DNA from: Cypionkella sp.
Lineage (GTDB): Bacteria > Pseudomonadota > Alphaproteobacteria > Rhodobacterales > Rhodobacteraceae
NCBI RefSeq assembly: GCF_028290025.1
Contig: NZ_JAQGKQ010000050.1
Location: 1-64,000 of the forward strand
Direction: 5' to 3'
Length of the DNA stretch: 64,000 nucleotides
Below, piece by piece: positions 8,860-63,022 of the stretch; position 1 is the first letter of the stretch, and the number at the start of each line of letters is the position of its first letter. Under the pieces are notes generated by a model. It saw nothing but the letters and a program-made list of their open reading frames with translations, was not told the DNA's origin and ran no database searches. Position numbers and translations under genes: made by a program.

Positions 8860-10086
8860 TCAATTATTCCCGGTGGTGGCGGCAGGGGCGTCCGCTGCGG
8901 CAGAAGTGGCATCATGCACCACGCCATCAGCATCAATGGTGACGGGAACCGGATTGATCTCGGCCCCATCGCGCAGGTTGGTCAGGCCATCGACGATCAC
9001 CAGATCGCCATCCTCAACGCCCGAGGTAACAATCCACGCGTTGTCTTGACTGCCCGAAGTGGTCAGCGCGACCTTGCGCGCCACGCCATCCTTGGCGACA
9101 AACACCGTCAACGTGCCATCGGAATTGCGGCCCGTGGCGCGTTGCGGCACCAGTTTGCCGCTGGTGCTGCCCAGCGTCAGCTTAACCCGCAGGAATTGGC
9201 CGGGCAGGATCAGCCGCTTGGGGTTGTCGAACTGCACGCGCAGATCGAAGGTACCCGTGGTGGCGGAAACCACATTTCCCAGCACAACCACGGTGCCTTC
9301 GCCGTCATAAATGTCACCGCTTTCCAGCACCAGCGCCACGCCGACCTTAGAGCCCAGCTGCAAGCTGCCATCCTCAATCTGCGCGCGGACGCGCAACATT
9401 CCGGCACTGGAATCGCTGACATCAATATAGATCGGGTCAAGCCGCGTGACGGTCGCCAAAGCATCGGCTTGGTTCGCCGTCACTAAAGCGCCGATAGAGA
9501 CGTTGGATATGCCAGCAATCCCTGCAATCGGACTGCGGACGATGGTGCGGTCTAGGTCAAGTTGCGCCACATCAAGCGCGGTCTTGGCGGCGGCATAGCT
9601 CGCGGCGGCAGCTGCCGCTGTGGCTTCGGCATTTTGCAGATCGGCTTTGCTGACGGCGCTGCCTTGCAGGGTTTTATAGCGATCTACCGTGGCTTGTGCT
9701 GTGTCACGCTGCACCATAGCGCCCGCCAAAGCCGCATTGGCCGAGGCGAGTGCCGCAACATAAGTGGTATCTTCAATCTTGAACATTGGATCGCCGGGTT
9801 GCAGCGCGTCGCCTGCGGCATATAAGATTTCTTCGACCACCCCACTGACCCGAGCCCGAATTTCCCCGGTTTCATACGCCACGGCACGACCCGGCAGGGT
9901 GCGGACATAAGGCACATCGCGGGTTTCCACGACGACGGTTCCCACATCGACCGGACCCTTAGGCGCACCGCCGGGAGGCGTTTGGGCAACACTTTGGCTG
10001 GCCAGAAACATAAACGAAATCAAGGAAAAGCTGCCGATATGGCGGAGCGTGCGCCGCAAAATCTGGGGGGCCGGGTAAGGGAGCAT
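8860..10086 (-). CDS. RND efflux periplasmic adaptor subunit (AcrA/MexA, membrane fusion protein)
   Basis: The 408-residue product has an N-terminal export signal ending near VAQTPPGGAP with no lipobox cysteine. The MFP layout follows: beta-barrel and lipoyl halves (YVRTLPGRAVAYETGEIRAR, later GDPMFKIEDTTY), an Ala-rich helical hairpin (about residues 120-190), then DLDRTIVRSPIAGIAG and the membrane-proximal domain. It bridges the RND permease to an outer-membrane channel. It is the first gene of the two-gene operon, so the promoter should lie between 10087 and 10253, where no obvious operator was found. Confidence 0.92.
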   Translation of the reverse strand: MLPYPAPQILRRTLRHIGSFSLISFMFLASQSVAQTPPGGAPKGPVDVGTVVVETRDVPYVRTLPGRAVAYETGEIRARVSGVVEEILYAAGDALQPGDPMFKIEDTTYVAALASANAALAGAMVQRDTAQATVDRYKTLQGSAVSKADLQNAEATAAAAAASYAAAKTALDVAQLDLDRTIVRSPIAGIAGISNVSIGALVTANQADALATVTRLDPIYIDVSDSSAGMLRVRAQIEDGSLQLGSKVGVALVLESGDIYDGEGTVVVLGNVVSATTGTFDLRVQFDNPKRLILPGQFLRVKLTLGSTSGKLVPQRATGRNSDGTLTVFVAKDGVARKVALTTSGSQDNAWIVTSGVEDGDLVIVDGLTNLRDGAEINPVPVTIDADGVVHDATSAAADAPAATTGNN

Positions 10087-10253
10087 TTGGATTCCGTTTT
10101 TTGATTATTCTGGAAGCAATGGCAGGCCAAGATAGCGTATCGCAAGCAGAGCATCGCTGCGCCCAAGATAAGCCTTTTACGCCGCCCGGAAAGGTTTCCG
10201 TCGCCAATCGCCCAAATGAATCACAGATAGCGTGAACTAGGATCGCGCGGAGC

Positions 10254-11141
10254 CTATTGGGGCCGCGCTAAAGTCGTGCTCGCCCAATGAGACAGCGGCA
10301 GGCGTGCCAGTTTGTCTGGATTGCGGGTGCGGTAAATTGCGCTGATCTGGCCGTGCTCAATCTCGAGCGTCGTTGTTTGCAGCACGCCGTTTAGGGTACT
10401 GACATAGCCGGGCAGACCGTCATTCCAGATCAGCTTGATCAGACTCTCATTCGTGCCATGCTTGCGCCAGAGCCCTGCGAACAGCCTCAGCAGATTTGCT
10501 GCTCCGCTGATCACATTCGGGAACGCGCTGACTTTGCCGCCACCGTCCGAATGCATCATCACACCTTGCGCCAACAGGGATTGCAGCGCCGCAATGTCAC
10601 CGCTGCGGGTAGCCGCAAGGAAAGCGTGGGTGATGCGGTTGCCTTCGTCGCGGCCGACCACATAGCGCGGACGTTCCGCCTGCACATGCTTGCGCGCGCG
10701 CGAGGCGAGTTGCCGCACTGCCTCGGGGTCGCGGTTCAGGGTGTGGGCGATTTCGGAAACGGAGGTTTCAAAAACGTCGTGTAGCAGGAAGGCGGCGCGC
10801 TCCAGCGGTGACAGGCGTTCCAGCGCGACCATCAGGGTGAGGGTGAGATTATCAGCGCGCAGGGCATCGTCTTTGGGTTCGGTGATCGGTTCGGGCAACC
10901 AACGGCCGAAATAGGTCTCGCGCTGGGCGTGGGCGGATTTCATCGCGTCAAGGCACAGACGGGTGACGATGCGCGACAGATACGCGGCGGGGCTGTCGAT
11001 TTTGGCCGCATCCAGCTTGTGCCAGCGTAGATAGGCGTCTTGCACAACGTCTTCTGCCTCGGCGCGCGAACCGAGCATTCGGTAAGCGAGGCGCAGCAAC
11101 CGGGGCCGCTGCGCCTCAAAGGTTTCAGCGTTAGGCTGCAT
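10254..11141 (-). CDS. ECF41-family RNA polymerase sigma factor with SnoaL-like C-terminal domain
   Basis: The 295-residue protein has sigma-2 (residues ~8-75, RLLRLAYRMLGSRAEAEDVV), the ECF41 linker motif WLPEP at 81-85, and sigma-4 (~105-155, RLSPLERAAFLLHDVFE). The extended C-terminal domain contains DGGGK at 199-203 and NPDKL at 274-278. WLPEP, DGGGK and NPDKL are diagnostic of ECF41, where the C-terminal extension acts as a built-in modulator instead of a separate anti-sigma factor. Its ATG lies inside the end of the ancestral reading frame of the upstream AhpD-like gene, implying translational coupling. The upstream promoter matches the ECF41 consensus, so the module is probably autoregulated. 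The inducing signal is unknown. Confidence 0.93.
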   Translation of the reverse strand: MQPNAETFEAQRPRLLRLAYRMLGSRAEAEDVVQDAYLRWHKLDAAKIDSPAAYLSRIVTRLCLDAMKSAHAQRETYFGRWLPEPITEPKDDALRADNLTLTLMVALERLSPLERAAFLLHDVFETSVSEIAHTLNRDPEAVRQLASRARKHVQAERPRYVVGRDEGNRITHAFLAATRSGDIAALQSLLAQGVMMHSDGGGKVSAFPNVISGAANLLRLFAGLWRKHGTNESLIKLIWNDGLPGYVSTLNGVLQTTTLEIEHGQISAIYRTRNPDKLARLPLSHWASTTLARPQ

Positions 11142-11590
11142 GTTTGGCTAAGGCGGGGGCGGCGCGGAAGCCGACTTGGATGCGGTTCCAAACGTTGATC
11201 GAGCCGATCGCAAGCGTCAGGTTCAGCCGTTCGTCCTCGGTAAACGCAGCCTCGACCAGCGTGTAATCCTCATCAGGAGCGCCAGTGTTGGGCGAGGTTA
11301 GTCAAGCTTTCCGTCCACGCCAAAGCCGCACGTTCGCGAGCGGAATACAGCGGAGCTTCGCGCCATGCGGAGAGAAGATGCAGCCGCATCGGATCTTCGC
11401 CATCCTTCAACGCCTCGGTCGCGTGAAGGTGCAGGCAGAAGGCGCAGCCGTTGATCTGCGAGGCGCGCAGTTTGACTAGATGCAGGAGTTTGGCATCCAA
11501 GCCGCTGTCGCGGATGGCTGTCTCCAGCGCAAACATCGCCTTAACGCCGGGGTGGGTGGGTTTGAAATAGTCGGTCATGCGGGGGATCAT
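11131..11590 (-). pseudogene. AhpD-like carboxymuconolactone decarboxylase family protein, frameshifted (ECF41 partner)
   Basis: The open frame MIPRMTDYFKPTHPGV encodes an AhpD-type protein with the redox motif NGCAFCLHLH near residue 47. It then hits a stop after LAQHWRS. Shifting one base near 11283-11290 restores a convincing C-terminus (TGAPDEDYTLVEAAFTEDER, then INVWNRIQVGFRA) ending at the TAA at 11131, 11 bp inside the sigma gene. The sequence reads CCCAACACTGGC where CCCAAACTGGC would keep frame, so one extra C explains the break. Such proteins are CxxC peroxidase or decarboxylase-fold enzymes and are the common genomic partners of ECF41 factors. It may be a true frameshift or a sequencing error. 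AAGGA precedes the ATG at 11590. Confidence 0.85.
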
Positions 11591-11620
11591 TGTGGTTCCT
11601 TGATTTGCTTACAAGGATAA

Positions 11621-11647
11621 GACGAGGCAGCTTGGCCCAGTGTGACA
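11621..11647 (-). promoter_or_regulatory. ECF41-type promoter upstream of the AhpD-like gene and sigma factor
   Basis: On the minus strand TGTCACA (-35) is followed by exactly 16 bases and then CGTC (-10). This is the published ECF41 target promoter. The ATG of the AhpD-like gene lies 30 bases beyond the -10, leaving a short leader with its ribosome-binding site. It implies autoregulation of the two-gene module by the ECF41 factor. Confidence 0.85.
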
Positions 11648-11679
11648 TGGGCGGGCGGATTATTTGGAAAAGTTTGCGG

Positions 11680-12528
11680 CTACCGCGTGAAGCTGATCGG
11701 CAGGGTGAAATTATAGCTGGCGTCAGTTAATCCTTCGGGCGCTTTCGGAAAGCTGCCGGCGCGGCTGACGGCGCTTAGGGCGGCTTTGTCCAGCGCGGCG
11801 TTGCCGGACGATGCGACCAGCGAGACGCCTGCCAATGCGCCGCTGCGGGAGACTGACAGGCGCACGGTGGCGGTGCCTTCTGCGCCCTTCGCGGCACTTG
11901 GATAGGATTTGCGACCGTTAACTTTCTTGCGGATCGCGGCACCCCAGCGTGAGGTCAGCGATTTGACTTGGCCTTTTGAAGCGGCGGTAGCTGATTTCGT
12001 CTCGGCGGAGGGTTTCTGCGGAGCCTTGGGTTTCTCTTTAACCTTTTCAACCTTGGGCTTTTTAGGCTTTGGTTTTTCTTCCGGCACCGGCTCGGGTTTT
12101 GGCTTTTCCGGTGGGGCTTCGGCGTCGGGTGGCAGGTCCGCTTGCGGTGGTTCTAGCGCGAGTGGTTCAGGCTCGGGCATATCGGGCGCTATGTCAGGCT
12201 CGGCCAGATCAGGGAGGGGTTCGTTCTGCACGATAGGTTCCAAACTGTCGGGCAGTTCGGCCATTGGCACCTCCGGCGCGGGTTCCAGCGTGGCGATGGC
12301 TGGGGGCGCTGCGGGCAGCGGGGCCATGTCGATCAGCACGGCGTTTTCGATGTCGGTGTTGCTGCCGACGGTGTTGTTGATCCACAGCGTCAGCCAGACA
12401 GCCGCCGCCATTACGCCCGCCACCGACACCGCCGCCGCCGACCATTTCGCGGCATAACCTACGGGGTGATGGCCTGCGCGGGACGTCAGCCAATCGACCG
12501 AAGCCATAGGGGCGGCGCGCGTCGTCAT
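11680..12528 (-). CDS. tonB: TonB energy-transducing protein
   Basis: The 282-residue protein has a cytoplasmic lead, one membrane span (about residues 30-50), a long Pro/Glu/Lys-rich periplasmic spacer (residues ~75-175, repeated PEP, KPKP and PKK runs), and a C-terminal TonB domain (KSYPSAAKGAEGTATVRLSV, ending ASYNFTLPISFTR). It carries proton-motive energy from ExbB/ExbD to outer-membrane receptors. It overlaps the exbD end by 4 bp and is last in exbB-exbD-tonB. The nearby receptor is its probable client. Confidence 0.92.
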   Translation of the reverse strand: MTTRAAPMASVDWLTSRAGHHPVGYAAKWSAAAVSVAGVMAAAVWLTLWINNTVGSNTDIENAVLIDMAPLPAAPPAIATLEPAPEVPMAELPDSLEPIVQNEPLPDLAEPDIAPDMPEPEPLALEPPQADLPPDAEAPPEKPKPEPVPEEKPKPKKPKVEKVKEKPKAPQKPSAETKSATAASKGQVKSLTSRWGAAIRKKVNGRKSYPSAAKGAEGTATVRLSVSRSGALAGVSLVASSGNAALDKAALSAVSRAGSFPKAPEGLTDASYNFTLPISFTR

Positions 12529-12956
12529 GGCGTAGCAGGCGCGCCTTCGATGCCGACCAGCGCGACATGGAGATAGCCGGAAGCGCGCAGCAGGTTCATC
12601 ACGGCCATCAGTTTGCCGTAAGCCACCGTCTCATCGGCGCGCAGATAGATGCGTTGGGTGCGGTCGCCGTTGGTCAAGGTGTCAAGTTTTGCACCGAGAT
12701 TTTCGCGGTTGATGGCCTCAGACGCGAGCGAAAGAGTCAGGTCTTTTTGCACGGTGACATAGATCGGCTCGGGCGCGCGATCTACCGGGGCGGCGTTCGA
12801 TCCGGGCAGATCGACGGGGATATCCACCGTCGAAAGCGGCGCCGCCACCATGAAAATGATCAGCAGCACCAACATCACGTCAATAAACGGCGTGACGTTG
12901 ATCTCGTGGTTTTCCTCCAGATCGTCGCCAGTTTTGTCGCGCATCGACTTGCCCAT
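12525..12956 (-). CDS. exbD: Biopolymer transport protein ExbD
   Basis: The 143-residue protein has a short cytoplasmic N-terminus, one span containing the conserved proton-channel Asp (INVTPFIDVMLVLLIIFMV), and a periplasmic domain. Length and motif are typical of ExbD of the TonB motor. It lies 3 bp after exbB and overlaps tonB by 4 bp. Confidence 0.95.
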   Translation of the reverse strand: MGKSMRDKTGDDLEENHEINVTPFIDVMLVLLIIFMVAAPLSTVDIPVDLPGSNAAPVDRAPEPIYVTVQKDLTLSLASEAINRENLGAKLDTLTNGDRTQRIYLRADETVAYGKLMAVMNLLRASGYLHVALVGIEGAPATP

Positions 12957-12959
12957 GGC

Positions 12960-13976
12960 TTAAGCCTCTTTCGGCAGGTGGCGGAAATCGAGATCGCGGC
13001 TGAGCAGGCGTTCCACCCCGGCAGCGGCGTCGCCAAGGCTTTGACGATATGCAGCAATTTCGCGGGTGAAGTGGTTGTAGATCACCACGGCGGGGATGGC
13101 CGCGACCAGACCGATGGCGGTGGCGAGCAAGGCTTCGGCGATACCGGGGGCGACGACGGCGAGGTTGGTGGTCTTGGTTTCAGCGATGCCGATGAACGAA
13201 TTCATAATGCCCCAGACCGTGCCAAACAGCCCCACAAACGGAGCGGTTGCGCCGATAGTGGCGAGCAAGCCAGTGCCGCGACGGATGCGGCTGCCGGCTT
13301 GGATTTCGACGCGGTCAAGCACCGAACGGGTGCGCTCTTTGACGCCATCCGGGCCAGCGGCGGCGATAGCTGGGTCAGAGCGGCGGTATTCGATCAGGGC
13401 GGCTTGCGCCATGAAGGCGGCGGGGTCGGTTTGTTTGGAAAGCTGCGCCGAGGCGGATTCCAGCGATTGCGCGGCGTGGATGGTTTTGACCGAACGGCGG
13501 GCGCGGGCGCGGGCGATGGCAAGCTCGATCATCTTGAACACCAGCACCGTCCAAGTCACGAACGAGGCGAAGGCCAGCGACACCATCACCAGCTTCACCA
13601 CCCAATGCGCGGCTAGATACATGCCCCAAGGCGAGTAATCGGTCTGCGTGTGTGGAGGTTCGGATACGGTTTCAGCGGAGGCGGGCTGTTGCGCGGCAGG
13701 TGGTTGCGGAGTGGCAAGCGGCGCAGTTGCGGCGGGTTTGGCTTGCGCAGGTGCTATGTTTTCTGCGGACGGCGTTTCCGAGGGCATCGTTTCGGCGGGT
13801 AATGTGGGCGCTGCCTCGGTTGACACAGCGGGCGCGCTTGGCTCCGGCATTTCGGATTGCACGACAGGTGGTTGCGGAGCCTCTTGCGCAAAAAGCGGAG
13901 TTGCCAACGCCGTAACGAGGCCAAAAGCCACGGCCAAACCGATGCTGCGAGGGATCGGGAAAGGCGCTGTCAACAT
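12960..13976 (-). CDS. exbB: Biopolymer transport protein ExbB with long N-terminal extension
   Basis: The 338-residue protein starts with an export signal (LAVAFGLVTALATPLFAQE). About 90 residues of Pro/Ala/Glu-rich linker follow, then the three-span MotA/TolQ/ExbB domain (SLAFASFVTWTVLVFK, GLLATIGATAPFVGLFGTVW, GLVAAIPAVVIYNHF). E. coli ExbB is about 244 residues; the extra N-terminal signal and linker are common in alphaproteobacterial ExbB. It forms the pentameric stator that powers TonB. First gene of exbB-exbD-tonB, divergent from the AraC regulator across a 252-bp gap holding candidate promoters for both. Confidence 0.93.
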   Translation of the reverse strand: MLTAPFPIPRSIGLAVAFGLVTALATPLFAQEAPQPPVVQSEMPEPSAPAVSTEAAPTLPAETMPSETPSAENIAPAQAKPAATAPLATPQPPAAQQPASAETVSEPPHTQTDYSPWGMYLAAHWVVKLVMVSLAFASFVTWTVLVFKMIELAIARARARRSVKTIHAAQSLESASAQLSKQTDPAAFMAQAALIEYRRSDPAIAAAGPDGVKERTRSVLDRVEIQAGSRIRRGTGLLATIGATAPFVGLFGTVWGIMNSFIGIAETKTTNLAVVAPGIAEALLATAIGLVAAIPAVVIYNHFTREIAAYRQSLGDAAAGVERLLSRDLDFRHLPKEA

Positions 13977-14106
13977 GGCTGGGTCCGTTCATTTCGCTGC
14001 ACAGGTGAGGTCTGCAGCGTCGATTGTTTGCGGTCTGACGGGCGTTTCAGATTGCAAAAAGCAGCCGACAAGCGGCCAACACATTCTGATCTGCTTACCG
14101 TGCAGG

Positions 14107-14146
14107 CAGTTAATTTCGTTGCCGGGGTGAGTCAAGAAAATTTCTT
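14107..14146 (-). promoter_or_regulatory. Candidate exbB promoter with overlapping palindromic operator
   Basis: On the minus strand TTGACT (14130-14135), a 17-base spacer and TAACTG (14107-14112) form a sigma70-like promoter aimed at exbB. Directly upstream and overlapping the -35 is AAGAAA-A-TTTCTT (14134-14146), with perfect 6-bp arms. The position suits an iron-responsive repressor such as Irr, RirA or Fur, but the sequence matches no consensus I can state exactly. Confidence 0.45.
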
Positions 14147-14197
14147 AGGCTTTCAGTCGCCTATTTGTCACAATCCCGATGATAGATTGCCGAGTAA

Positions 14198-14226
14198 TTG
14201 ACTCGGACATTAGACTGCAAGAATTA
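14198..14226 (+). promoter_or_regulatory. Candidate sigma70-like promoter for the AraC regulator
   Basis: TTGACT (14198-14203), a 17-base spacer and GAATTA (14221-14226) face the araC-type gene. If used, transcription would begin near 14233, so the GTG at 14229 could not be the start codon and one of the ATGs at 14307, 14319 or 14337 would be. Confidence 0.35.
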
Positions 14227-14228
14227 AG

Positions 14229-15209
14229 GTGTCACGCCAGCCTTGTCTGCCGCCGATTCTACCGGTCGTCAGATCAAGGCCAGCTTCCCGTTTTCCCTTG
14301 GCGCTGATGGTGTCCCTTATGTCGTTTCGCCCCAATATGACGGCATTCACCGATGGCATTCGTGCCCTTGGTGCGCTGCGTTGGCGGGCTTGGGAAGGTG
14401 TGGTCGCCGATCTTTGGCACGCTGAGGGCACTTTGGGCGGCGGCGGGCATTATGTCTCGCCTGACCCGCGGATCGTGATTTTCCTGAAGGATGGCGGCAA
14501 GAGCATCCGGCTTTCTGATACGCCGAATGATGTGGCCTCGCGCCCTGCTGGACAGATCAGCTATATTCCGGCGGGGATGCCGCTGTGGTCGCAGATCGTT
14601 GAAACCGGAGAGTTCCGCCATCTCGATCTGCATTTCGATGGCGTGGCGCTGACGCAAAGATTGGGTGAGCGCTATGGCATGGCTTGGGCCGTGGCAGCGC
14701 TGGCCAAGCCGATCATGCTAGGCCAAAGCCCCGAGATTGACCGGATTGCGCATCTGCTGGCGGATGAGATGCAAGGCGACGGCCAGCACGATTTGTTTGG
14801 CGAGGGGCTGGTGCAGGCGATATTGGGCCGGGTGCTTTCGGCGGCCGATTGCACGGCAAATGCGGAGCCTTTGCGCGGCGGTTTGACTCCACATCAAATG
14901 CGCCGCTTGACCGATTTCATGCAGGCCAATTTGCATCGCCGCGTGCCGGTTAGCGAGCTTGCGGCGCAGATCGGGCTGTCGGAAAGCTGGTTCGCGCGGG
15001 CGTTCAAACAGACCAACGGCGAGACGCCGCACGCTTGGCAACAACAGCTGCGGATCAGTGCTGCCAAGGCGATGTTGGGACGCGATGGCTCGGCTTTGGT
15101 AGAGATCGCGGCGGCCACCGGTTTTGCCGACCAAGCCCATATGACGCGGGCGTTTCGGTTGGTGACGGGCACCACTCCAGCGGCATGGCGGCGCGGTCAC
15201 TCCTGCTGA
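14229..15209 (+). CDS. AraC-family transcriptional regulator of the siderophore-uptake island
   Basis: Up to 326 residues. A cupin-like sensing half (VSPDPRIVIFLKDGGKSIRL, AGQISYIPAGMPLWSQIV) precedes a C-terminal double helix-turn-helix (residues ~222-322: VSELAAQIGLSESWFARAFK and LVEIAAATGFADQAHMTRAF). AraC proteins in this setting usually activate receptor and uptake genes when the iron-siderophore complex is bound. It lies between the divergent exbB operon and the downstream TonB-dependent receptor, and probably controls one or both. No start codon has a clear ribosome-binding site. The GTG at 14229 is the longest choice, but the possible promoter just upstream favours a later ATG. Confidence 0.88.
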   Translation: MSRQPCLPPILPVVRSRPASRFPLALMVSLMSFRPNMTAFTDGIRALGALRWRAWEGVVADLWHAEGTLGGGGHYVSPDPRIVIFLKDGGKSIRLSDTPNDVASRPAGQISYIPAGMPLWSQIVETGEFRHLDLHFDGVALTQRLGERYGMAWAVAALAKPIMLGQSPEIDRIAHLLADEMQGDGQHDLFGEGLVQAILGRVLSAADCTANAEPLRGGLTPHQMRRLTDFMQANLHRRVPVSELAAQIGLSESWFARAFKQTNGETPHAWQQQLRISAAKAMLGRDGSALVEIAAATGFADQAHMTRAFRLVTGTTPAAWRRGHSC

Positions 15210-15339
15210 TTGAAGCGGCATTCGTGCAATTCAAAGCGGGATGCTGCAAGACAGCACCGATATTTCTACTTAAACAGTCAGGAATACGTGCTTCCTCCTC
15301 GTTGCGCGCGTTCCGTCCTTCATAATTCAGGAAATGCTG

Positions 15340-17511
15340 ATGACCCCGCTCCGCTCCCGCTCCCGTCTGGCCGTGCTGCTGGGCCAAACCGCCCTGATCG
15401 CCTGCACGTTGCCGCAGTTGGCTATCGCCCAAACCACCACCGAGCTAGAGCCGATTGTGGTGACGGGCGAAGGCGAAGGCACCGCGACTGGTCCAGTCAC
15501 CGGCACCAATCCGGCAACGCTGACCGGGTCGAAGACCGCCACGCCGATCACAGAGGTGCCGCAGTCGGTGAGCGTGATTTCGGCGGAGACTTTGAAGACC
15601 ACCAACGTATCCAAGCTGGACGGGGCTTTGTCCTATGTCGCGGGTGTGACGGGTCAGCCCTACGGCTATGACAGTGACACCAACTGGATTTTCATCCGTG
15701 GTTTCAATGCCTCACAGCATGGCGCGTATCAAGATGGCTTGGCGAACAACGCTTATGGCTTCGGCAGCTTCTTCATCGACCCGTTCTTGGTGGAGCGGAT
15801 TGAAGTGCTGAAAGGCGCGTCGTCGGTGCTTTATGGCGGCTCGAATCCGGGTGGTCTGGTCAACTATGTGACCAAAGCCCCAACGGGCGAAGATAAAACC
15901 ACGCTGGAGTTTGGTCTGGACGAGCATGGCCGCGTTTGGGCCTCGGTCGATCAGAACCGTGTGGTTTCGGATTCGCTCAGCTATCGTTTGCTGGGCAAGA
16001 TTGAGCGTCTCGATGGCCACGGTGCGTTTGATCCCGGCCTGCACACGCTGCTTTCGGGTTCGGTTGAACAGAAACTCGACAATGGGGCGGTGCTAACTTA
16101 CGGGCTGGACCTGTTGAAAACCGACGAAGCGCATGTCGGCAACGCTTGGTTGCCCTATGTTGGCACCGTGGAAGAAGCCTCGTTCGGTTACATCCCGCGC
16201 GATTTCAACGTCGGCGAGCCGGACCATGACAGCTACAAGCGCGATCAGGCATCGCTGCGCTTTGGCTTCACGCAAGAGCTTGGCGGCGGCTGGAAGCTGA
16301 CCAACAACACGCGTCTGTCGTGGGCTGATATCTCTGAGCGTTCGGTGGTGGCTTATGGCTATGCCACCTTCGGGGCGCCGGATGCAGTGGGCACCTTGGT
16401 GCGCGGCGTGTTCGACCATGACACCTCGCAAACCAGCTTTGGCACCGATACCCGGCTTGAGAATACTTTTGCGACCGGCGCTTTGGAGCATAAGGTGATG
16501 GTCGGTGTTGACCTGAAAAACTTCAAAATGGATATCCTCGAGAAAAGCGCATATCCCGCGACGCCTTTGACAGTGGTTGATCCGATCTACGGCGCGAGCC
16601 AACCCGCAGCAGCGGCTTACAAGGATGTTGATATCACCCAGCGTCAGGCGGGGGTTTATCTGCAAGACCAAATCCGCTGGGGCAATGGCTGGATCGGCAC
16701 TGGCAACCTGCGTTACGATTGGGTCGAAACCGAGGCGAGCGCCGATCGCGCCACCGACGCTGAAGGCAGCAAGCGCAATGACGGTGAGCTGACATGGCGT
16801 TTGGGTCTGGCGAAAGAAGTGACCGAGGGCGTGACGGTTTACGCCACCACTTCAACTTCGTTCAACCCGACCATCGAGCCAAGCACAGCTGGTAATGACA
16901 TCAAGCCGGAAACTGCGCGTCAGGCCGAGTTGGGTGTGAAATGGGCGGTTAGCAACAACTTTCTGCTGACTGCGTCGGCGTTTGATCTGAAGCGGAAGAA
17001 CGTCTCGCAATCGACGTTTGGCGAAATCTCTCCCGGTGTGTTTGGGTCAATCTTCTCGCAAGTTGGCGAAGTCGAATCCAAGGGCTTCGAGTTTGAGGCT
17101 CAGGGAAAAATCGCGGAAGGTCTGACGATCTCGGCAGCTTATACCAAGATGGAACTTGAGGTTCTTGACGACCAGAACACGGCTTTGATCGGTAATTCCT
17201 TGCGCGAAGAGCCAGAGGAGTTCGCGTCGTTGCAAATGGGTTGGACACCGTCGTCGATGCCGGAGCTGACACTGACCGGGGCTGCGCGTTACACAGGCGG
17301 AAGCTGGGCGGATGACGCCAACACCGCTTGGGTGCCGTCGCGCACGTTGTTTGATATTGGTGCAAGCTATGCGATGCAAAATGATTGGCAGGCTAATCTC
17401 GCGATCACTAATGTCGCCGACAAAAAGTATGTCTCTAGCTGCGCAGGCACCAACTATTGCTACTATGGTGACGGCCGCACGGCGAGCATCAGCATCAGCA
17501 AGTCGTTCTAA
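15340..17511 (+). CDS. TonB-dependent ferric-siderophore outer-membrane receptor (FhuA/FpvA-like)
   Basis: About 723 residues. A signal peptide ends near LAIAQTTTE and is followed by a TonB-box-like PIVVTG. The plug domain contains TEVPQSVSVISAETLK, FIRGFNASQHGAYQDG, and VERIEVLKGASSVLYGGSNP with NPGGLVNYVTKAP, the pattern of siderophore receptors. A 22-strand barrel follows, ending ASISISKSF with a C-terminal aromatic. It imports a ferric siderophore, probably hydroxamate-type given the FhuCDB-like genes downstream. I chose the ATG at 15340 because AGGA lies 7 bases before it; the track's ATG at 15334 has AGGA almost touching it. It sits between its AraC regulator and the ABC genes. Confidence 0.92.
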   Translation: MTPLRSRSRLAVLLGQTALIACTLPQLAIAQTTTELEPIVVTGEGEGTATGPVTGTNPATLTGSKTATPITEVPQSVSVISAETLKTTNVSKLDGALSYVAGVTGQPYGYDSDTNWIFIRGFNASQHGAYQDGLANNAYGFGSFFIDPFLVERIEVLKGASSVLYGGSNPGGLVNYVTKAPTGEDKTTLEFGLDEHGRVWASVDQNRVVSDSLSYRLLGKIERLDGHGAFDPGLHTLLSGSVEQKLDNGAVLTYGLDLLKTDEAHVGNAWLPYVGTVEEASFGYIPRDFNVGEPDHDSYKRDQASLRFGFTQELGGGWKLTNNTRLSWADISERSVVAYGYATFGAPDAVGTLVRGVFDHDTSQTSFGTDTRLENTFATGALEHKVMVGVDLKNFKMDILEKSAYPATPLTVVDPIYGASQPAAAAYKDVDITQRQAGVYLQDQIRWGNGWIGTGNLRYDWVETEASADRATDAEGSKRNDGELTWRLGLAKEVTEGVTVYATTSTSFNPTIEPSTAGNDIKPETARQAELGVKWAVSNNFLLTASAFDLKRKNVSQSTFGEISPGVFGSIFSQVGEVESKGFEFEAQGKIAEGLTISAAYTKMELEVLDDQNTALIGNSLREEPEEFASLQMGWTPSSMPELTLTGAARYTGGSWADDANTAWVPSRTLFDIGASYAMQNDWQANLAITNVADKKYVSSCAGTNYCYYGDGRTASISISKSF

Positions 17512-17531
17512 GCCTACGGGACTAATATGAT

Positions 17532-17562
17532 CAGGATGGGCGGGTTGACCTCGCCCATCCTG
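17532..17562 (+). terminator. Strong hairpin after the siderophore receptor gene (no U-tract)
   Basis: CAGGATGGGCG (17532-17542) pairs perfectly with CGCCCATCCTG (17552-17562) around a 9-base loop, 20 bp after the receptor stop. No T-run follows, so it may stabilise the receptor mRNA or reduce read-through into the downstream ABC genes rather than act as a complete terminator. Confidence 0.55.
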
Positions 17563-17629
17563 CCAGCCAAGTTGCCCGTGCTTCACCCACGCCACTTCGC
17601 CCGCAGTTTTCCTAACCCGAGTTCCCCAC

Positions 17630-19333
17630 ATGCTTCGCCAATTCGCTGTCTACTACCGCCCGTGGATGGGATTGTTCTGGCTCGACTTCGGCTGTGCGGT
17701 GCTGTCGGGGCTGTTGGAGCTCGCCTTTCCGCTGGCGGTGCGCGGTTATATCGACTGGCTGCTGCCGCAGGGCAACTGGACGCTCACGGTGGTGTTCGCG
17801 GTGGCTCTGTGCGCGATTTATGTGGTGAACGCCGGGCTGATGGCGATTGTGATCTATTGGGGTCATATGCTGGGCATCAATATCGAAACCGAGATGCGGC
17901 GGCGGGCTTTTGACCATTTGCAGCGGCTGTCTTGGGGCTATTTTGACCGTCAACACTCCGGCCATCTGATTGCCCGGGTGACCCGCGATCTGGAGGATAT
18001 TGGTGAAGTCGCGCACCACGGCCCCGAAGATCTGATCGTCGCGGTGATGACCTTTGTCGGCGCATTTATCCTGATGTTAACCGTTCACGCGCCCTTGGCA
18101 TGGATGACGGTGGTGATCGTGCCGATGGCCGCCGTGCTGGTGATGTATTTCGGCGGCCGAATGACCGCGACGTGGCGGGCGATCTATGACCGTGTGGCGA
18201 ATTTCAACGTGCGGATTGAGGAAAACGTCGGCGGCATCCGGGTGGTGCAGGCGTTTGGCAACGAGGATCACGAGCGGGCGCTGTTCGCGAAGGATAACGC
18301 CAGCTATCGCCGCACCAAGCTTGAGGCTTACAAGGTGATGTCGATTTCCTCGACGCTGAACTATGTCGGGATGCGCGCGGTGCAGGTGATGGTGATGGTT
18401 GCCGGCGCGGGGTTTGTGCTGAACGGGTCGTTGACGGCGGGGGGGTTCGTCGCGTTCCTGCTGCTGGTTGGCGTGTATTTCCGGCCGTTGGAGAAGATTG
18501 CCTCGGTGATTGAGACCTATCCGAAAGGCATCGCGGGCTTTCGGCGTTACCTTGATTTGATGGCGACCAAGCCGGATGTTGTGGACAGCCCCGATGCGGT
18601 GGCGGCCCCCGCCTTGCGCGGCGCGGTGAAGTTCGAGCATGTGAGTTTCGGCTACGAGGCCGCGCGCCCGGTGCTGCGCGATGTGAGCTTCTCGGTAAAT
18701 CCGGGGCAAACCGTGGCATTTGTCGGCGCTTCGGGGGCGGGCAAGACCACTCTGCTGGCGCTGTTGCCGCGGTTTTACGAGCCGACTTCCGGGCAGATCA
18801 GCATTGACGGGATGCCGTTGGAGTCGATGACTCTGGCGAGCCTGCGGGCGCAGGTCGGGATTGTGTCGCAGGACGTGTTCCTGTTCAGCGGCACTCTGCG
18901 CGATAATATCGGCTATGGGCGCTTAGGCGCGACGGATGCCGAAATCCTTGCCGCCGCAGCTTCCGCGCAGCTAGAGGCGACGATTGCCGCCTTGCCGCAG
19001 GGCCTCGATACCGTGGTGGGCGAGCGTGGCGTGATGCTGTCAGGCGGGCAAAAACAGCGGGTGGCAATCGCGCGGGTGTTCCTGAAAAACCCACCGCTGT
19101 TGATCTTGGATGAGGCGACTTCGGCGCTGGACACTCAGACCGAACGCGAGATTCAGGCCGCGCTCGACAGGCTTTCGGCGGGGCGCACCACCTTTATCAT
19201 CGCGCATCGCTTGGGCACCATTCGCCACGCCGATAAGATCGTGGTGATGGATCAGGGGCAAGTGGTGGAGACCGGAACGCATGGCGATCTGAGCCTGAAG
19301 GGGGGTCGCTATGCCGATCTGCACGCCGCATGA
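17630..19333 (+). CDS. ABC transporter, fused membrane and ATPase domains (exporter type), siderophore-linked
   Basis: The 567-residue half-transporter has six spans in the N-terminal ~310 residues and a nucleotide-binding domain from ~330. Walker A is GASGAGKTTLL, the Q-loop SQDVFLF, the signature LSGGQKQRVAIARVF, Walker B LLILDEATSALD and the switch IAHRLGTI. It should work as a homodimer. Exporter-fold ABC proteins occur in siderophore clusters either exporting siderophore or, as in YbtPQ and IrtAB, importing it. Its stop overlaps the start of the siderophore-reductase gene by 4 bp, tying it to iron release. Direction and substrate are not determined by sequence. Confidence 0.85.
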   Translation: MLRQFAVYYRPWMGLFWLDFGCAVLSGLLELAFPLAVRGYIDWLLPQGNWTLTVVFAVALCAIYVVNAGLMAIVIYWGHMLGINIETEMRRRAFDHLQRLSWGYFDRQHSGHLIARVTRDLEDIGEVAHHGPEDLIVAVMTFVGAFILMLTVHAPLAWMTVVIVPMAAVLVMYFGGRMTATWRAIYDRVANFNVRIEENVGGIRVVQAFGNEDHERALFAKDNASYRRTKLEAYKVMSISSTLNYVGMRAVQVMVMVAGAGFVLNGSLTAGGFVAFLLLVGVYFRPLEKIASVIETYPKGIAGFRRYLDLMATKPDVVDSPDAVAAPALRGAVKFEHVSFGYEAARPVLRDVSFSVNPGQTVAFVGASGAGKTTLLALLPRFYEPTSGQISIDGMPLESMTLASLRAQVGIVSQDVFLFSGTLRDNIGYGRLGATDAEILAAAASAQLEATIAALPQGLDTVVGERGVMLSGGQKQRVAIARVFLKNPPLLILDEATSALDTQTEREIQAALDRLSAGRTTFIIAHRLGTIRHADKIVVMDQGQVVETGTHGDLSLKGGRYADLHAA

Positions 19334-20385
19334 TCCGCGCTGATAACCTTGCCTTAACGGGTAGTTTGCTGGATGCACCGGGCGCGTTCGCAGCGCATGT
19401 CGGGCAGATTTACAGCTCGTTTGACGTGGTCGATTTGCCGGACGGCGGGGTACGGGTCAGTTTCACCAGCGGTTCGATCAGCTTTGCGCCGGGTGAGCAG
19501 GCGATGGTTATTGCGGTGACCGCGGTATCCGCGACCGACCTATTTGTGCTGCGTGAGGCGGTGGCTGGGCTCGTCGATGGCTTCGATGCGACGTTGGCGG
19601 CACGGCTGATCTGGGATCGTCCACTGGCGAAGCTACAGGTGCCGCCGAACTTCCGGCAGGGGCGTGTGGTGGCAATCTCGCATCCCGGCGTGGGGTATGT
19701 GCGGCTGCGCATTGCGGCGGATCATCTGGGGGCGTTCGCTGTCAGCGGACTGCATCTGCGGCTGCTGCTGCCGCCCGAAGGTCGCGCGGTGGTTTGGCCG
19801 TCAGTGTCGGAGGCGGGCCGCACGGTTTGGCCCACAGGTGCGGATAAGCTGCACGATCCGGTCTACACTATCCGCGCGATTGATCCGGCGGCGGGCTGGC
19901 TTGAGGTCGATATTTTCCTGCACGGCAAGGGTCGCACCTGCCGTTGGGCGGAAAATGTGCAGCGCGGAGCGGTGGTTGGGCTGATCGGGCCGGGTGGCGG
20001 TTATCTGCCCATGGCGCGGCATCTGGTGCTGGCTGGCGATGAGACGGCATTGCCCGCGATTGCACGGATACTAGAGACTGCTGCCCCGGATACGCTTGGC
20101 GATGCGATAATCTTGGTCCCGAATGCGGCGGCGATGCAGCCGTTGATCGCTCCGCCCGAAGTGCAGGTGATCTGGCTGTTCCGCACGGCGGGCGATACGT
20201 TGGAAAGTGGTCTGACGACGGTTGCTATGCCTCGAGCCGGATTGGCCGGGGGTCGTCAGTTGTGGATCGCTGGCGAGCGTTCGGAATGCCAACGCCTGCG
20301 CGGGCAGTTCAATGTTGCGAGCGGTTGGGCGAAATCTGACACCACAATCGCGGGCTATTGGACGGCGGGCGATGTTCAGGCTTGA
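19330..20385 (+). CDS. Siderophore-interacting protein: ferric-siderophore reductase with N-terminal DUF2218 domain
   Basis: The 351-residue protein starts with a DUF2218-like domain (residues ~10-95). The FAD-binding SIP domain follows (VRLRIAADHLGAFAVSGLHL, PVYTIRAIDPAAGWLEVDIF, then GPGGGYLP), and a C-terminal NAD(P)H-binding SIP domain ends GYWTAGDVQA. The ViuB/YqjH family reduces cytoplasmic ferric siderophores to release Fe2+. The gene is packed between the ABC exporter-type protein (4-bp overlap) and the FhuC-like ATPase (14-bp overlap), so uptake and iron release are translated together. No biosynthesis genes for a siderophore are present, so xenosiderophore use is possible. Confidence 0.88.
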   Translation: MIRADNLALTGSLLDAPGAFAAHVGQIYSSFDVVDLPDGGVRVSFTSGSISFAPGEQAMVIAVTAVSATDLFVLREAVAGLVDGFDATLAARLIWDRPLAKLQVPPNFRQGRVVAISHPGVGYVRLRIAADHLGAFAVSGLHLRLLLPPEGRAVVWPSVSEAGRTVWPTGADKLHDPVYTIRAIDPAAGWLEVDIFLHGKGRTCRWAENVQRGAVVGLIGPGGGYLPMARHLVLAGDETALPAIARILETAAPDTLGDAIILVPNAAAMQPLIAPPEVQVIWLFRTAGDTLESGLTTVAMPRAGLAGGRQLWIAGERSECQRLRGQFNVASGWAKSDTTIAGYWTAGDVQA

Positions 20386-21139
20386 GGCCATCTCGCGGCT
20401 GCATGGTGCACGCAAAGTGTTGGCGCTGGATCGGCTGGAGCTGGGGGCTGAGGGGCTGACGGTGGTGCTGGGCCACAATGGCTCGGGCAAATCGACGCTG
20501 TTGGGGCTGCTCGCGCGCACAGATGTGCCGACAACGGGGCGGATCAGCTTGAATGACACGCCGCTGGCCGCAATCGGTCAACGCAAATTGGCGCAGCAAA
20601 TCGCCTATCTGCCGCAGCGCTTGCCTGCCGTGCCGGGGCTGACTTTGCGGGAGTTGGTGCGGCTTGGCCGCTACCCGTGGCGCGGCGCTTTGGGGCGGTG
20701 GCAGCCGACAGATCACGCGGCGGTTAAGGCGGCTTTGATCGCAACCTCCGGTGAGGCTCGCGCCGAAGCTTTGGTCGAAACCATGTCGGGCGGAGAGCGT
20801 CAGCGCGGCTATATCGCCATGCTGCTGGCGCAAGACGCGCCGATCTTGCTGCTCGACGAGCCGACCTCGGCGCTTGATCCCGGCCATGCTTACGAGGTGA
20901 TGCGGCTGCTGCGCAAGCTGGTCGATACCACGGGGCGCCGGGTGATCGTGGTGCTGCATGACGTCAACTTGGCCGCGCGTTTTGCCGACCGTGTGGTGGC
21001 GTTGCGCGAAGGTCAAATCGCGTTTGATGGCGCGCCCGTGGGCCTGCTTGACCCCGCGATTTTGTCAATGCTTTACGCGGTGCCGATGCAGGTAGTGCCC
21101 GGTCTGGCTGGCCAGTTGCCGCTGGCCGTTGTGTCCTAA
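20372..21139 (+). CDS. Ferric-siderophore ABC importer ATPase (FhuC-like)
   Basis: The 255-residue ATPase has Walker A GHNGSGKSTLL at residues 34-44, LPQRLPAVPGLTLRELVRLG (typical of the FecE/FhuC/BtuD class), the signature MSGGERQRGYI, Walker B ILLLDEPTSALD and the switch VVLHDVNLAARFADR. It energises the FhuB-like permease. The track begins at 20222, but those 50 residues are the reductase gene read in another frame. The ATG at 20372, inside the end of the reductase gene, fits the family N-terminus. Confidence 0.9.
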   Translation: MFRLEAISRLHGARKVLALDRLELGAEGLTVVLGHNGSGKSTLLGLLARTDVPTTGRISLNDTPLAAIGQRKLAQQIAYLPQRLPAVPGLTLRELVRLGRYPWRGALGRWQPTDHAAVKAALIATSGEARAEALVETMSGGERQRGYIAMLLAQDAPILLLDEPTSALDPGHAYEVMRLLRKLVDTTGRRVIVVLHDVNLAARFADRVVALREGQIAFDGAPVGLLDPAILSMLYAVPMQVVPGLAGQLPLAVVS

Positions 21140-21148
21140 GGAAATCCG

Positions 21149-22063
21149 ATGCGCGCTTTGTTCGCCGCCTTTTGTCTGCTCGCGTTGCCCGCTTTCGCGG
21201 ACCCTGTAACCATCACCGACCGCCGTGGCGCGCAAACCTTCGCCACCCCACCGCAGAAGATCGCGGCGCTCGATTGGTCGGTGACCGAGGCGCTGCTTGA
21301 TCTTGGCATCACCCCCGCAGGCGTCGCCGAACCCGCGGCTTATGCCGATTGGGTGGTTGATCCAGCCCTGCCCGCTGGTGCCGTTGATCTCGGTCTGCGC
21401 GCCGAGCCGAACCTTGAGGCTTTGGCGGCGCTGCACCCCGATGTAATCGTGACCGCCGACATTGACCCCGCGCTGGTGCCGGTGCTGGAGCAGATCGCCC
21501 CGGTGGTGGTCTTTCAGGCATTCGACATCAACCAAGACAACCCGAGCGTGGCGAAAGAGATTTTTCTAAGCCTCGGCACCTTGACCGGAACGCGGGCTTT
21601 GGCGGAACAAAAGCTGGCTGCGCAAGAGGTTGAACTTGATGCGATTGCCAAGCGGTTGGCCGACCATTTCGGCACGCCGCTGCCCAAGGTGACGTCGGTG
21701 CGGCTGAACGATGCGACTTCGGCCTATGTCAATGGCGCGAACTCGATGCCGGAGTATGTTTTGCAACGTCTTGGGTTTGAAAACGAATTGCCACAGACGA
21801 AAACCCGCTGGGGCATTGCGCTGTTGAAGGCCGAAGATTTGGCGGCGGCGAAGACTGGCATCGTTCTGGCTATCGGGCCCGATATGGGTGGCACGGCTTT
21901 GCGGCAGACGCCGATCTGGGCGTTTTTGCCGTTCGTGAAGGCCAAACGCCTCGCCGATGTCCGCCCGGTCTGGAGCTATGGCGGTGCTTTGTCGATTGGG
22001 CGTCTTGCGCGCGGGTTTGAGGCGGCGTTGATGACGATACCGCCTGAGGCTCTCATCCGGTGA
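21149..22063 (+). CDS. Iron-siderophore periplasmic binding protein (FhuD-like)
   Basis: The 304-residue protein has a signal peptide (MRALFAAFCLLALPAFA) followed by VTITDRRGAQTF and the two-lobed class III binding fold: KIAALDWSVTEALLDLGITP, HPDVIVTADIDPALVPVLEQ, and a long connecting helix around LAEQKLAAQEVELDAIAKRL. It delivers ferric siderophore to the FhuB-like permease. AAGGAAATCC precedes the ATG. Its TGA overlaps the GTG start of the permease, typical of coupled expression. Confidence 0.9.
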   Translation: MRALFAAFCLLALPAFADPVTITDRRGAQTFATPPQKIAALDWSVTEALLDLGITPAGVAEPAAYADWVVDPALPAGAVDLGLRAEPNLEALAALHPDVIVTADIDPALVPVLEQIAPVVVFQAFDINQDNPSVAKEIFLSLGTLTGTRALAEQKLAAQEVELDAIAKRLADHFGTPLPKVTSVRLNDATSAYVNGANSMPEYVLQRLGFENELPQTKTRWGIALLKAEDLAAAKTGIVLAIGPDMGGTALRQTPIWAFLPFVKAKRLADVRPVWSYGGALSIGRLARGFEAALMTIPPEALIR

Positions 22064-24021
22064 GCAATCCGCTGAAATTAGCCGGCCTCGCACTGCTGGT
22101 GCTGGGGCATTGTGCGGCGCATGTGATGCTCGCGGTCGATCTGCCACTGGCCCGGATGGCGCAGCTTTTGACCGGGGCCGAGCCGCAAGACTTCGCTGAT
22201 GCGGTGTTCGTGCAGGGTGAACTGCCGCGCTTGGTTATGGCGGCGTTGGTCGGTGCGGCTTTGGGTCTTGCGGGTAGCCTGATGCAGCAGTTGACGCAGA
22301 ACGCGCTGGTGTCGCCGATGACGATGGGGGTGTCGTCGGGCGCTTGGCTGGCACTGGTTTTGGTGTCGATTATCGCGCCGGGTGGGGTGCATTCGGAATG
22401 GGTGGCGCTGGGTGGAGCTGCGGTGGCGGCGGGTCTGGTTCTGGCGGTGACGGGCGCGCGCGGGCTGGTGGGGATGCAGGCGCCGCTGGCCGGGATGGCG
22501 GTGAACCTGCTGTTTGGCTCGATGGCGGCCACCGCGGTGCTGCTCGCGAACCCCTATACCGAGCATCTGTTCCTGTGGGGCGCGGGCGATTTGACGCAAA
22601 CCAGTTGGGGGCCGGTGCTGTGGCTGCTGCCGCGATTGCTGCCCGGCATGGTGATCGCGGCGCTGTTGGTGCGACCGTTGAGCCTGCTGCGCTTGGGCGC
22701 GCAAGCGGCTGGCGGGCGTGGCATGGTTTTGTGGCCGGTGGCCGTGGCCGTGGCGTTGGCGGCGCTGCACTTGGCTGCGGTTTCGGTGACAGCGGTGGGG
22801 ATGATCGGCTTTATCGGGCTGGTTTCCCCCAATATGGCGCGGCTTTTGGGAGCGCGACGGGCGGGGTCGGAACTGCTGGCCTCGGCGATCTTGGGCGCGG
22901 TTTGTCTGATCGCGGCGGATGTGCTGGCGCTGGCTGTGTCGCAGTTTATGACCAGCATCGTGCCAACCGGAGCGACCGCCGCGCTGACCGGGGCGGTGGT
23001 GCTGATCTGGCTGCTGCGGCGCAAACTGGGGGCCGAAGATCACGCGGTGCATTCGCTGCCCGCTGGTGCCGCCCGGGTTAGTTTGAGGCGCGCGGTTTTG
23101 TTGGGGCTGGCATTTGCAATGCTGGTGTTCGCGGCTTTGGCTTTGGGTGTGACGCAAACCGGCTGGGTGCTGTCGTTCGATCCGATGATCCTGTCTTTGC
23201 GCTGGCCGCGCGTTCTGGCGGCGGCTTCGGCGGGGGCGAGCATGGCGCTGGCGGGCTGCATCCTACAACGCCTTATCCGTAACCCGTTGGCCAGCCCGGA
23301 TATTCTCGGCATGTCGGCGGGCGCTGTGGCTGCACTGGTCGGCGTGGCGCTGCTCACGGGAGGCTCGATCCATGCCGCGCGCCTGCCTGTGGCTTTGGCG
23401 GGTTGCGGTGGAGCCTTGGCGCTGCTGCTGTGGTTTGGGCGCAGGCACAGCCACGCCCCCGCCGCACTGGCGCTGATCGGGATTGCCTTGGGCGCGGGCC
23501 TTGATGCCGTGGTGCGGGTGTCGATGGCTGCGGGCACGTCGGAGACGTTTGCGATCCTCGGCTGGATGAGCGGATCGACCTATCGCATCGACGCCGCGCG
23601 GGCTTTGGGGTTGCTGGTTTGTCTGGGGCTAGGCATCCTGCTGGCGGCTATGGCGGTGCGCCCGCTGACCCTGCTTGGCGCGGGCGATGGCATTGCGACG
23701 GGGCGCGGTTTGGCTTTGGCCCCGGCGCGGCGGCTGTTGATGGTGCTGGCGGCGGCTCTGACGGCGGCGGTGACGGCGTTCATGGGGCCGGTCAGTTTTG
23801 TCGGCCTCGTCGGCCCACATCTCGCCGTGCTTTTAGGCGCAAGGCGGATGCAGGATCAGTTGATCGTAGCCCCGATTGCTGGGGCGGCGCTGATGGTGCT
23901 GTCCGATTGGCTGGGGCGGATTGTGCTGTATCCGAACCAACTGCCCGCCGGATCGGTGGCGGCAATCCTGGGCGGCAGTTATTTTCTGCTGCTATTGGCG
24001 CGCAGGCGCGTCGTAGTTTAG
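22060..24021 (+). CDS. Ferric-siderophore ABC permease, two fused halves (FhuB-like)
   Basis: The 653-residue protein is a tandem fusion of two FecCD-type permease domains. Each has about ten spans and the characteristic LAGSLMQQLTQNALVSPMTM (first half) or LAGCILQRLIRNPLASPDIL (second half), plus GFIGLVSPNMARLLGARR or VSFVGLVGPHLAVLLGARR as the ATPase contact region. FhuB is the prototype of this fused layout, which supports a hydroxamate-type substrate. It starts at a GTG overlapping the fhuD-like stop and ends the iron island, followed by a terminator shared with cysNC. Confidence 0.92.
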   Translation: MSNPLKLAGLALLVLGHCAAHVMLAVDLPLARMAQLLTGAEPQDFADAVFVQGELPRLVMAALVGAALGLAGSLMQQLTQNALVSPMTMGVSSGAWLALVLVSIIAPGGVHSEWVALGGAAVAAGLVLAVTGARGLVGMQAPLAGMAVNLLFGSMAATAVLLANPYTEHLFLWGAGDLTQTSWGPVLWLLPRLLPGMVIAALLVRPLSLLRLGAQAAGGRGMVLWPVAVAVALAALHLAAVSVTAVGMIGFIGLVSPNMARLLGARRAGSELLASAILGAVCLIAADVLALAVSQFMTSIVPTGATAALTGAVVLIWLLRRKLGAEDHAVHSLPAGAARVSLRRAVLLGLAFAMLVFAALALGVTQTGWVLSFDPMILSLRWPRVLAAASAGASMALAGCILQRLIRNPLASPDILGMSAGAVAALVGVALLTGGSIHAARLPVALAGCGGALALLLWFGRRHSHAPAALALIGIALGAGLDAVVRVSMAAGTSETFAILGWMSGSTYRIDAARALGLLVCLGLGILLAAMAVRPLTLLGAGDGIATGRGLALAPARRLLMVLAAALTAAVTAFMGPVSFVGLVGPHLAVLLGARRMQDQLIVAPIAGAALMVLSDWLGRIVLYPNQLPAGSVAAILGGSYFLLLLARRRVVV

Positions 24022-48383: not shown

Positions 48384-49631
48384 ATGAGAAATATACTTCT
48401 GGCGAGCGTCGCCGCTTTGACCCTGACGCCTATGGGCGCGCAGGCTTGTGACATCACCGTCGGGCTGGTGCTAGAGCTGACCGGTGAGGCTGGGGCTTAT
48501 GGTCAGGCCGGGGCGAAATCGGTTGAGATGGCGTTCCGCGATCTGAACGATGCGGGCGGCGTTGCGGGCTGCACGCTGAAAACCGACACGCGCGATAGCC
48601 AGACGCAGGCTAACTTGGCGGTGGATGCGGCTACCCAGCTTGTGCAAGTGGCGCATGTGCCTGCGATCATCGGCGGCATCATCTCGCCCATGTCGATCCC
48701 GATCCTGACGTCGGTGACCGGGCCTGCCAAGGTGCTGCAAGTTTCTCCCGCCTCGTCCTCGCCTACGCTGACCGAGCTTGGCAAAGACGGCAAAACCAAT
48801 GGCGTGTTCTTCCGCACCATCACCTCGGACGCGCTGCAAGGCGTGGCTGCGGCGAAGTTCGCGATGGATCAGGGCATGAAGAAAATCGTGATCATCCATC
48901 AGAACAACGACTTCGGCGTCAATCTGGTGAAAGAGTTCACCGCTCCCTACACCGCATTGGGTGGCGCTGTGGTTTCGGTGACGCCTTACAACGCCAAGCA
49001 ATCCAGCTATGCCTCGGAAGTCACCGCGGCTTTGGCGGGTGAACCGGATGCGTTGTACCTGATCTCGGACCCGGTTGATGGGGCGACGATTGCGCGGACA
49101 TGGATCAGCCAAGGTGGCGTGCAAAAGTTCCTGTTGAACGATGGCATGAACTCGGATGATTTCGTGGCCGCAGTTGGCAAGGAATATCTGGGCGGGGCTT
49201 ATGGCACCTCGTCGGGCAGTGTCGCTTCGGCCTCGACCGAGTATTTTAACGCCAACTACAACGCGTTCTCGGGGCTGGACCCGGCAGCGCCTGCCGCTGA
49301 CCGTTCCTACGATGCGGGTGCGTTGGTCGGCTTGGCGATCGCTATCGCAGGCGGCCCGGATGCGGCGAAACTGCCCGACGCGATGCGCAAGGCGGTCGAT
49401 CCGGCGGGCGAGGTGATTTACGCTGGCAAGGAAGAATTCACCAAGGCGCTGGCGCTGATCAAAGACGGCAAAGCGATCCGTTATGAAGGCGTGATCGGCC
49501 CGGTCAACTTTGACCAATACGGCGATATCTCGGGGCCATTCCGGCTGTGGCAGATCGTTGACGGCAAAGTCACCACGATTGGCGAGATGACCACGGCTGA
49601 CGTCGATAAGGTTAAAGCTGAAGTTAAGTAA
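48384..49631 (+). CDS. Liv-type ABC transporter periplasmic substrate-binding protein
   Basis: The 415-residue protein has a signal peptide (MRNILLASVAALTLTPMGAQA) followed by CDITVGLVLELTGEAGAYGQ, DTRDSQTQANLAVDAATQLV, and VIIHQNNDFGVNLVKEFTAP, the type I periplasmic binding fold of LivK/AmiC/UrtA-like proteins. It should feed the divergently encoded livGFHM channel. Being on the opposite arm from the permease genes, its co-regulation depends on the shared GntR operator. Ligand unknown. Confidence 0.9.
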   Translation: MRNILLASVAALTLTPMGAQACDITVGLVLELTGEAGAYGQAGAKSVEMAFRDLNDAGGVAGCTLKTDTRDSQTQANLAVDAATQLVQVAHVPAIIGGIISPMSIPILTSVTGPAKVLQVSPASSSPTLTELGKDGKTNGVFFRTITSDALQGVAAAKFAMDQGMKKIVIIHQNNDFGVNLVKEFTAPYTALGGAVVSVTPYNAKQSSYASEVTAALAGEPDALYLISDPVDGATIARTWISQGGVQKFLLNDGMNSDDFVAAVGKEYLGGAYGTSSGSVASASTEYFNANYNAFSGLDPAAPAADRSYDAGALVGLAIAIAGGPDAAKLPDAMRKAVDPAGEVIYAGKEEFTKALALIKDGKAIRYEGVIGPVNFDQYGDISGPFRLWQIVDGKVTTIGEMTTADVDKVKAEVK

Positions 49632-62811: not shown

Positions 62812-62861
62812 CTTTCTCTCCAACGTTGCGACGGAAACGGTCGGGGATGGAGAAATCCATG

Positions 62862-62965: not shown

Positions 62966-63022
62966 ATGGCGAAGCATACGGAAATGGATTGTAGGCGCAA
63001 GGGGGAGTTTGATTTTTGGGTG

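Follow-up and report, generated by a model that had tools for sequence, protein, structure and literature searches.

The DNA analysed here, a 64,000-nucleotide stretch from Cypionkella sp. (hereafter, the window), contains a bona fide ECF41 locus; its arrangement is the best-known one, and it represents no new kind of system. On balance, we read this locus as probably being in early decay, with its AhpD-like partner gene frameshifted and a paralogous operon elsewhere in the genome backing it. The partner is a COE gene, a term that stands for carboxymuconolactone decarboxylase (CMD), oxidoreductase or epimerase, and the predicted order of promoter, AhpD-like COE gene and sigma gene is common for ECF41 (SigJ-like) systems. 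ECF41 factors recognise a TGTCACA/CGTC promoter and usually control their own COE gene; they control themselves when cotranscribed with that gene, and their own C-terminal extension restrains them (PMC3426412; PMC8999054). The anatomy of the sigma factor and the promoter is that of the published ECF41 type (Wecke 2012, PMC3426412). The coordinates are listed in Table 1.

Table 1. Features of the ECF41 locus (positions are those of the window).
Feature	Position	Strand	Basis
-35 element TGTCACA	11641..11647	-	exact match; same box and spacing in 56/91 ECF41 loci
-10 element CGTC, N16 after the -35 element	11621..11624	-	exact match, locus comparison
Predicted transcription start G, 9th base past CGTC, 22-nt leader	11612	-	inferred from conserved position
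AAGGA, probable ribosome-binding site of the AhpD-like gene	11597..11601	-	sequence reading
AhpD-like ORF (carboxymuconolactone decarboxylase family), 105 aa, truncated	11273..11590	-	ORF, profile search
+1 frameshift, one extra C, exact base ambiguous	11287	-	sister-species orthologue and ~39 other homologues
AhpD-like out-of-frame 3' remainder, 51 codons and stop, +1 frame	11131..11286	-	frame comparison
ECF41 sigma factor gene, SigJ-like, 295 aa	10254..11141	-	ORF, NF007214, 5xe7
WLPEP, sigma2-sigma4 linker motif, residues 81-85	10887..10901	-	homologue alignment
DGGGK, extension motif, residues 199-203	10533..10547	-	homologue alignment
NPDKL, extension motif, residues 274-278	10308..10322	-	homologue alignment

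The sigma protein consists of sigma2 (residues 8-70; Pfam Sigma70_r2, 2.5e-15), sigma4 (residues 103-152; Sigma70_r4_2, 4.7e-13) and a C-terminal extension of approximately 140 residues. The SigJ subfamily model NF007214 fitted it best (356.9 bits; cut-off, 271), and its nearest solved relative is Mycobacterium tuberculosis SigJ (5xe7). The earlier note had named WLPEP, DGGGK and NPDKL as ECF41 signatures, and all three were present at conserved columns of an alignment with 89 homologues. The linker motif WLPEP, as expected of an ECF41 factor, was identical in 85 of these 89, and residues 153-295, which follow sigma4, match the expected extension of about 100 or more residues carrying the other two motifs. 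At the 56 strongly conserved columns (at least 90% conserved among the 89 homologues), no deviation was detected. The assignment to ECF41 is thus backed by family models, by 91 related loci and by the founding paper of the family (PMC3426412). Pfam SnoaL_2 was below the detection threshold of 0.01 in this protein and weak in the paralogue. In line with the prediction of the earlier note, no anti-sigma gene lies beside the sigma gene, the neighbours being AcrA/AcrB-like, AhpD-like, TonB, ExbD and ExbB genes. By analogy with other ECF41 members, sigma activity would be set by the fused C-terminal extension, with no separate anti-sigma factor.

The exact TGTCACA-N16-CGTC promoter claimed for this locus was confirmed at 11647..11621 (minus strand), inside the 89-bp gap between the tonB-like gene and the AhpD-like gene. 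The pattern TGTCACA-N14-18-CGTC matched the window twice, versus 0.09 matches expected by chance; the second match (48425-48453) has a spacing of N18 and lies within coding sequence. We surveyed the spacing on the sense strand over 1.3 kb upstream of 91 ECF41 loci; these come from GTDB genomes and from relatives of the present one. TGTCACA and CGTC were separated by N16 in 56 of these loci and by N14, N15, N17 or N18 in none of the 91, and the variant TGTCACG-N16-CGTC occurred in nine. Control counts of the N16 pattern were 7 in antisense and 3 downstream, some of them preceding divergent or downstream COE genes.

Among the promoters lying directly before AhpD genes, the ninth base after CGTC was a purine in 28 of 29, and the base preceding it was a pyrimidine in all 29. 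The window promoter matches this pattern, with G11612 preceded by T, and its distance of 30 bases from CGTC to the AhpD ATG falls within the range of 28-61 seen in AhpD-linked ECF41 promoters. The starts mapped in Rhodobacter sphaeroides and Bacillus licheniformis are likewise G, with leaders of 22 and 23 nt, respectively (PMC3426412). Given the conserved purine position and these mapped starts, G11612 is well chosen as the start, in agreement with the earlier prediction of a start near this position. RNA polymerase carrying an ECF41 sigma factor would be expected to start at or near G11612, and the AhpD-like gene and the sigma gene would be transcribed as one message. A spacer of exactly 16 bases together with the conserved start purine, as seen across the 91 loci, allows a sharper genome-wide prediction of ECF41 targets.

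The description of the locus as a complete module, in contrast, did not hold. An AhpD-like CMD gene does lie directly upstream of the sigma gene, as expected of a COE neighbour, though it is frameshifted; a functional COE target should have a single open frame over approximately 150 aa, and the ORF stops at 11273 after 105 aa. The truncated ORF keeps the CxxC motif (CAFC) and the PF02627 domain, and its C-terminal end reads LTNLAQHWRS before the stop. At the break site, the window reads CTCGCCCAACACT..., with one extra C relative to the sister-species orthologue (CTTGCCCAAACC...). The out-of-frame remainder reads from TGAPDEDYTLVEAAF to AKHAA and a stop, and 11 of its bases are shared with the sigma start (ATGCAGCCTAA). 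Thus, the overlap of the two genes reported earlier exists only for this remainder (11286-11131), whereas the AhpD-like ORF itself ends 131 bases before the sigma ATG. No other homologue in the fetched ECF41 loci carries the same break, all being single-frame there, and the window locus alone among them has its AhpD gene split into two neighbouring pieces that differ in frame. A possible frameshift of the sigma gene was observed in Alkalilimnicola ehrlichii (L093, 3552-4402), where the ECF41 gene lies in two overlapping pieces in different frames.

When read across the break, the AhpD-like protein shows just 2 deviations in 42 conserved columns. Relative to the sister species, dN/dS was 0.083/0.701 before the break and 0.142/1.092 after it (approximately 0.12-0.13 each). 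These low, equal values and the few deviations across the break indicate that the lesion is either recent or an assembly error. In a read of the whole gene for four-base codons, CCCN was also present at other places.

If the extra C were a sequencing or assembly error, this would be an ordinary, fully intact ECF41-COE operon. Such an error would account for a single-base lesion in an otherwise clean AhpD gene with equal purifying selection on both halves, for the intact sigma gene, and for the nature of the change itself, a short homopolymer change from CC to CCC (GCCAAC to GCCCAAC). The frameshift is seen in one draft assembly (4.3 Mb, 118 contigs, 89.8% complete). However, the alignment with the sister species, which covers approximately 27 kb, shows no comparable frameshift in any other clear gene of this assembly; its two split hits correspond to an antisense ORF and to a decayed stretch of the sister genome. 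Indel errors are uncommon in the assembly, and damage to the syntenic locus and to a paralogue in the sister species makes real loss credible. We therefore lean clearly towards a real mutation and consider an error unlikely, though it is the strongest of the alternatives.

A close ECF41 gene was found in two of the 15 genomes of the genus, namely, this one and that of the sister species (G006). The syntenic locus in G006 keeps TGTCACA-N16-CGTC, followed by what is left of an NmrA-like gene (a C-terminal scrap and 22 N-terminal residues at 64%). Next come an AhpD-like ORF, which is intact, and a sigma pseudogene in which the start ATG is replaced by ATA and which also shows a 12-bp deletion and a +1 shift at WLPEP. 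In the second ECF41 copy of G006 (contig C8; L127/L012), the sigma gene is intact and the 5' part of the AhpD gene has been replaced by an IS21 IstB-like ORF, the family being named from sequence. Judging from these sequences, this lineage is in the process of losing parts of its ECF41 loci, and the damage at both G006 copies lends credibility to a real frameshift in the window.

The frameshift would give rise to a truncated AhpD protein of 105 aa, which might still be partly active, as it spans the CMD domain and the CxxC motif. Ribosomes would stop well short of the sigma start, and sigma output would probably be reduced, since the upstream stop is distant and no Shine-Dalgarno sequence is evident at the sigma ATG. 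With the AhpD-like COE partner frameshifted, this locus has probably lost the main known output of the operon, and its translational overlap with the sigma gene is broken. Such decay may be tolerated because of an intact AhpD-ECF41 operon on contig C55 and a further promoter before an NmrA-like/GST gene pair. Against the decay reading stand the low dN/dS values relative to the sister species (sigma, 0.20; AhpD, 0.13) and the fact that a single base is the sole sign of decay here.

The gene on C55 is the only other close ECF41 gene in this genome. It is overlapped by an intact AhpD-like gene and has its own TGTCACA-N16-CGTC promoter. A third such promoter lies 1.4 kb further on C55, in convergent orientation, before genes for an NmrA-like NAD(P)-binding protein and a glutathione transferase (GST). 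Contig C55 most likely belongs to this organism, because its GC content (0.591) is close to that of the window (0.596) and an 83% identical counterpart of its NmrA-like gene lies next to the ECF41 copy of G006. The genome scan for TGTCACA-N15-17-CGTC proposed in the earlier note yielded eight matches, of which only three precede COE genes (the NmrA-like gene and both AhpD genes). The others, and likewise the three TGTCACG-N16-CGTC matches, added no members to the regulon, as these sites were within coding sequences or had no COE gene nearby. Genomes of the genus without ECF41 showed a background of 0-2 matches each; one of them, in G005 (L112), resembled the NmrA promoter and was rejected, as it falls within a large ORF that resembles a gene for flagellar hook-length control.

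Because the promoter boxes are identical, the two sigma factors may be able to share these three promoters, and "autoregulated", the term used in the earlier note, is better phrased as probable auto- and cross-regulation. An extreme form of this would be a real frameshift that leaves the window locus as a sigma-only node, acting, if at all, in trans on the C55 AhpD and NmrA-like/GST operons; we regard this as rather doubtful, slightly more so than an assembly error. If true, it would reveal a small two-sigma, multi-promoter ECF41 network in the course of loss, in a family described as single-target. A genome with two ECF41 factors is a natural test of cross-talk, and of the fate of a sigma gene that has lost its partner enzyme; neither this nor the spacer and start-purine result alters how the ECF41 family is understood. 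Several TGTCACA/G-N16-CGTC promoters and NmrA-like genes were also observed within 10 kb of ECF41 in three Methylobacterium loci (L031, L033, and L040), an arrangement that suggests multi-promoter regulons there in place of a single target.

The AcrA-like and AcrB-like genes lie on the same strand, 167 bp past the sigma gene, and a search of positions 9900-12000 detected no terminator-like site on that strand. The ECF41 promoter might thus read through into these acrAB-type genes, so that the switch would control multidrug efflux, and the sigma/acr adjacency is kept in G006. We consider this improbable, because, among the ECF41 loci fetched, those of this genome and of its sister species are the only ones with an AcrA neighbour, and in the two organisms tested ECF41 targets nothing but COE genes (PMC3426412). 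As a trait of the family, efflux linkage was rejected, AcrA or EmrA-like neighbours being restricted to the same two genomes. Programmed frameshifting, in which slippage near CAA-C-ACT would produce full-length AhpD and the sigma gene would be translated by coupling only after slippage, would suit the clean resumption of the AhpD frame up to the sigma overlap, but it is very improbable, as the sister-species orthologue, the C55 paralogue and the other homologues are single-frame without the extra base, and the break site matches no slippery motif known to us.

Elsewhere in the window, positions 12843-22457 encode ExbB, an AraC-type regulator, a TonB-dependent receptor, ABC transporter parts, a siderophore-interacting protein and a periplasmic binding protein. 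G006 lacks this block at the syntenic position, and the exbD and fecCD-type genes that flank the site there are truncated or decayed; it is an iron-uptake block either lost in G006 or gained here. The FecCD-type permease at 22060-24021 (653 aa) contains two FecCD stretches, corresponding to two subunits fused in one ORF. An ALIL pseudoknot, the frameshift signal of IS3-type insertion sequences, was found at the window edge (RF01497; 45-161, minus strand; 114.1 bits), and a TPP riboswitch (RF00059) at 62850-62971 (minus strand).

Our preferred reading, an ECF41 locus in early decay, can be set against three known or related systems. SigJ of M. tuberculosis (PDB 5xe7) is distant in sequence (163.5 bits by phmmer) and could be aligned over residues 6-285, with the same sigma2-sigma4-extension architecture. 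The paralogous operon on C55 shares the gene order, the overlap, the promoter boxes and the N16 spacing with the window locus, and its sigma factor is 59% identical; unlike the window locus, it has an intact AhpD gene (153 aa) and a convergent NmrA-like/GST transcript with its own promoter. The Ecf41Rsp/RSP_0606 operon of R. sphaeroides (Wecke et al. 2012, PMC3426412) is like the window locus in having a CMD/AhpD-like gene upstream, TGTCACA and CGTC boxes, a G start with a leader of approximately 22 nt, WLPEP, the conserved C-terminal motifs and no adjoining anti-sigma gene. The RSP_0606 CMD gene overlaps the ECF41 gene, whereas that of the window is frameshifted, and the present genome differs further from the situation of Ecf41Rsp in its second ECF41 operon and in the additional promoter of ECF41 type at the NmrA-like/GST pair.
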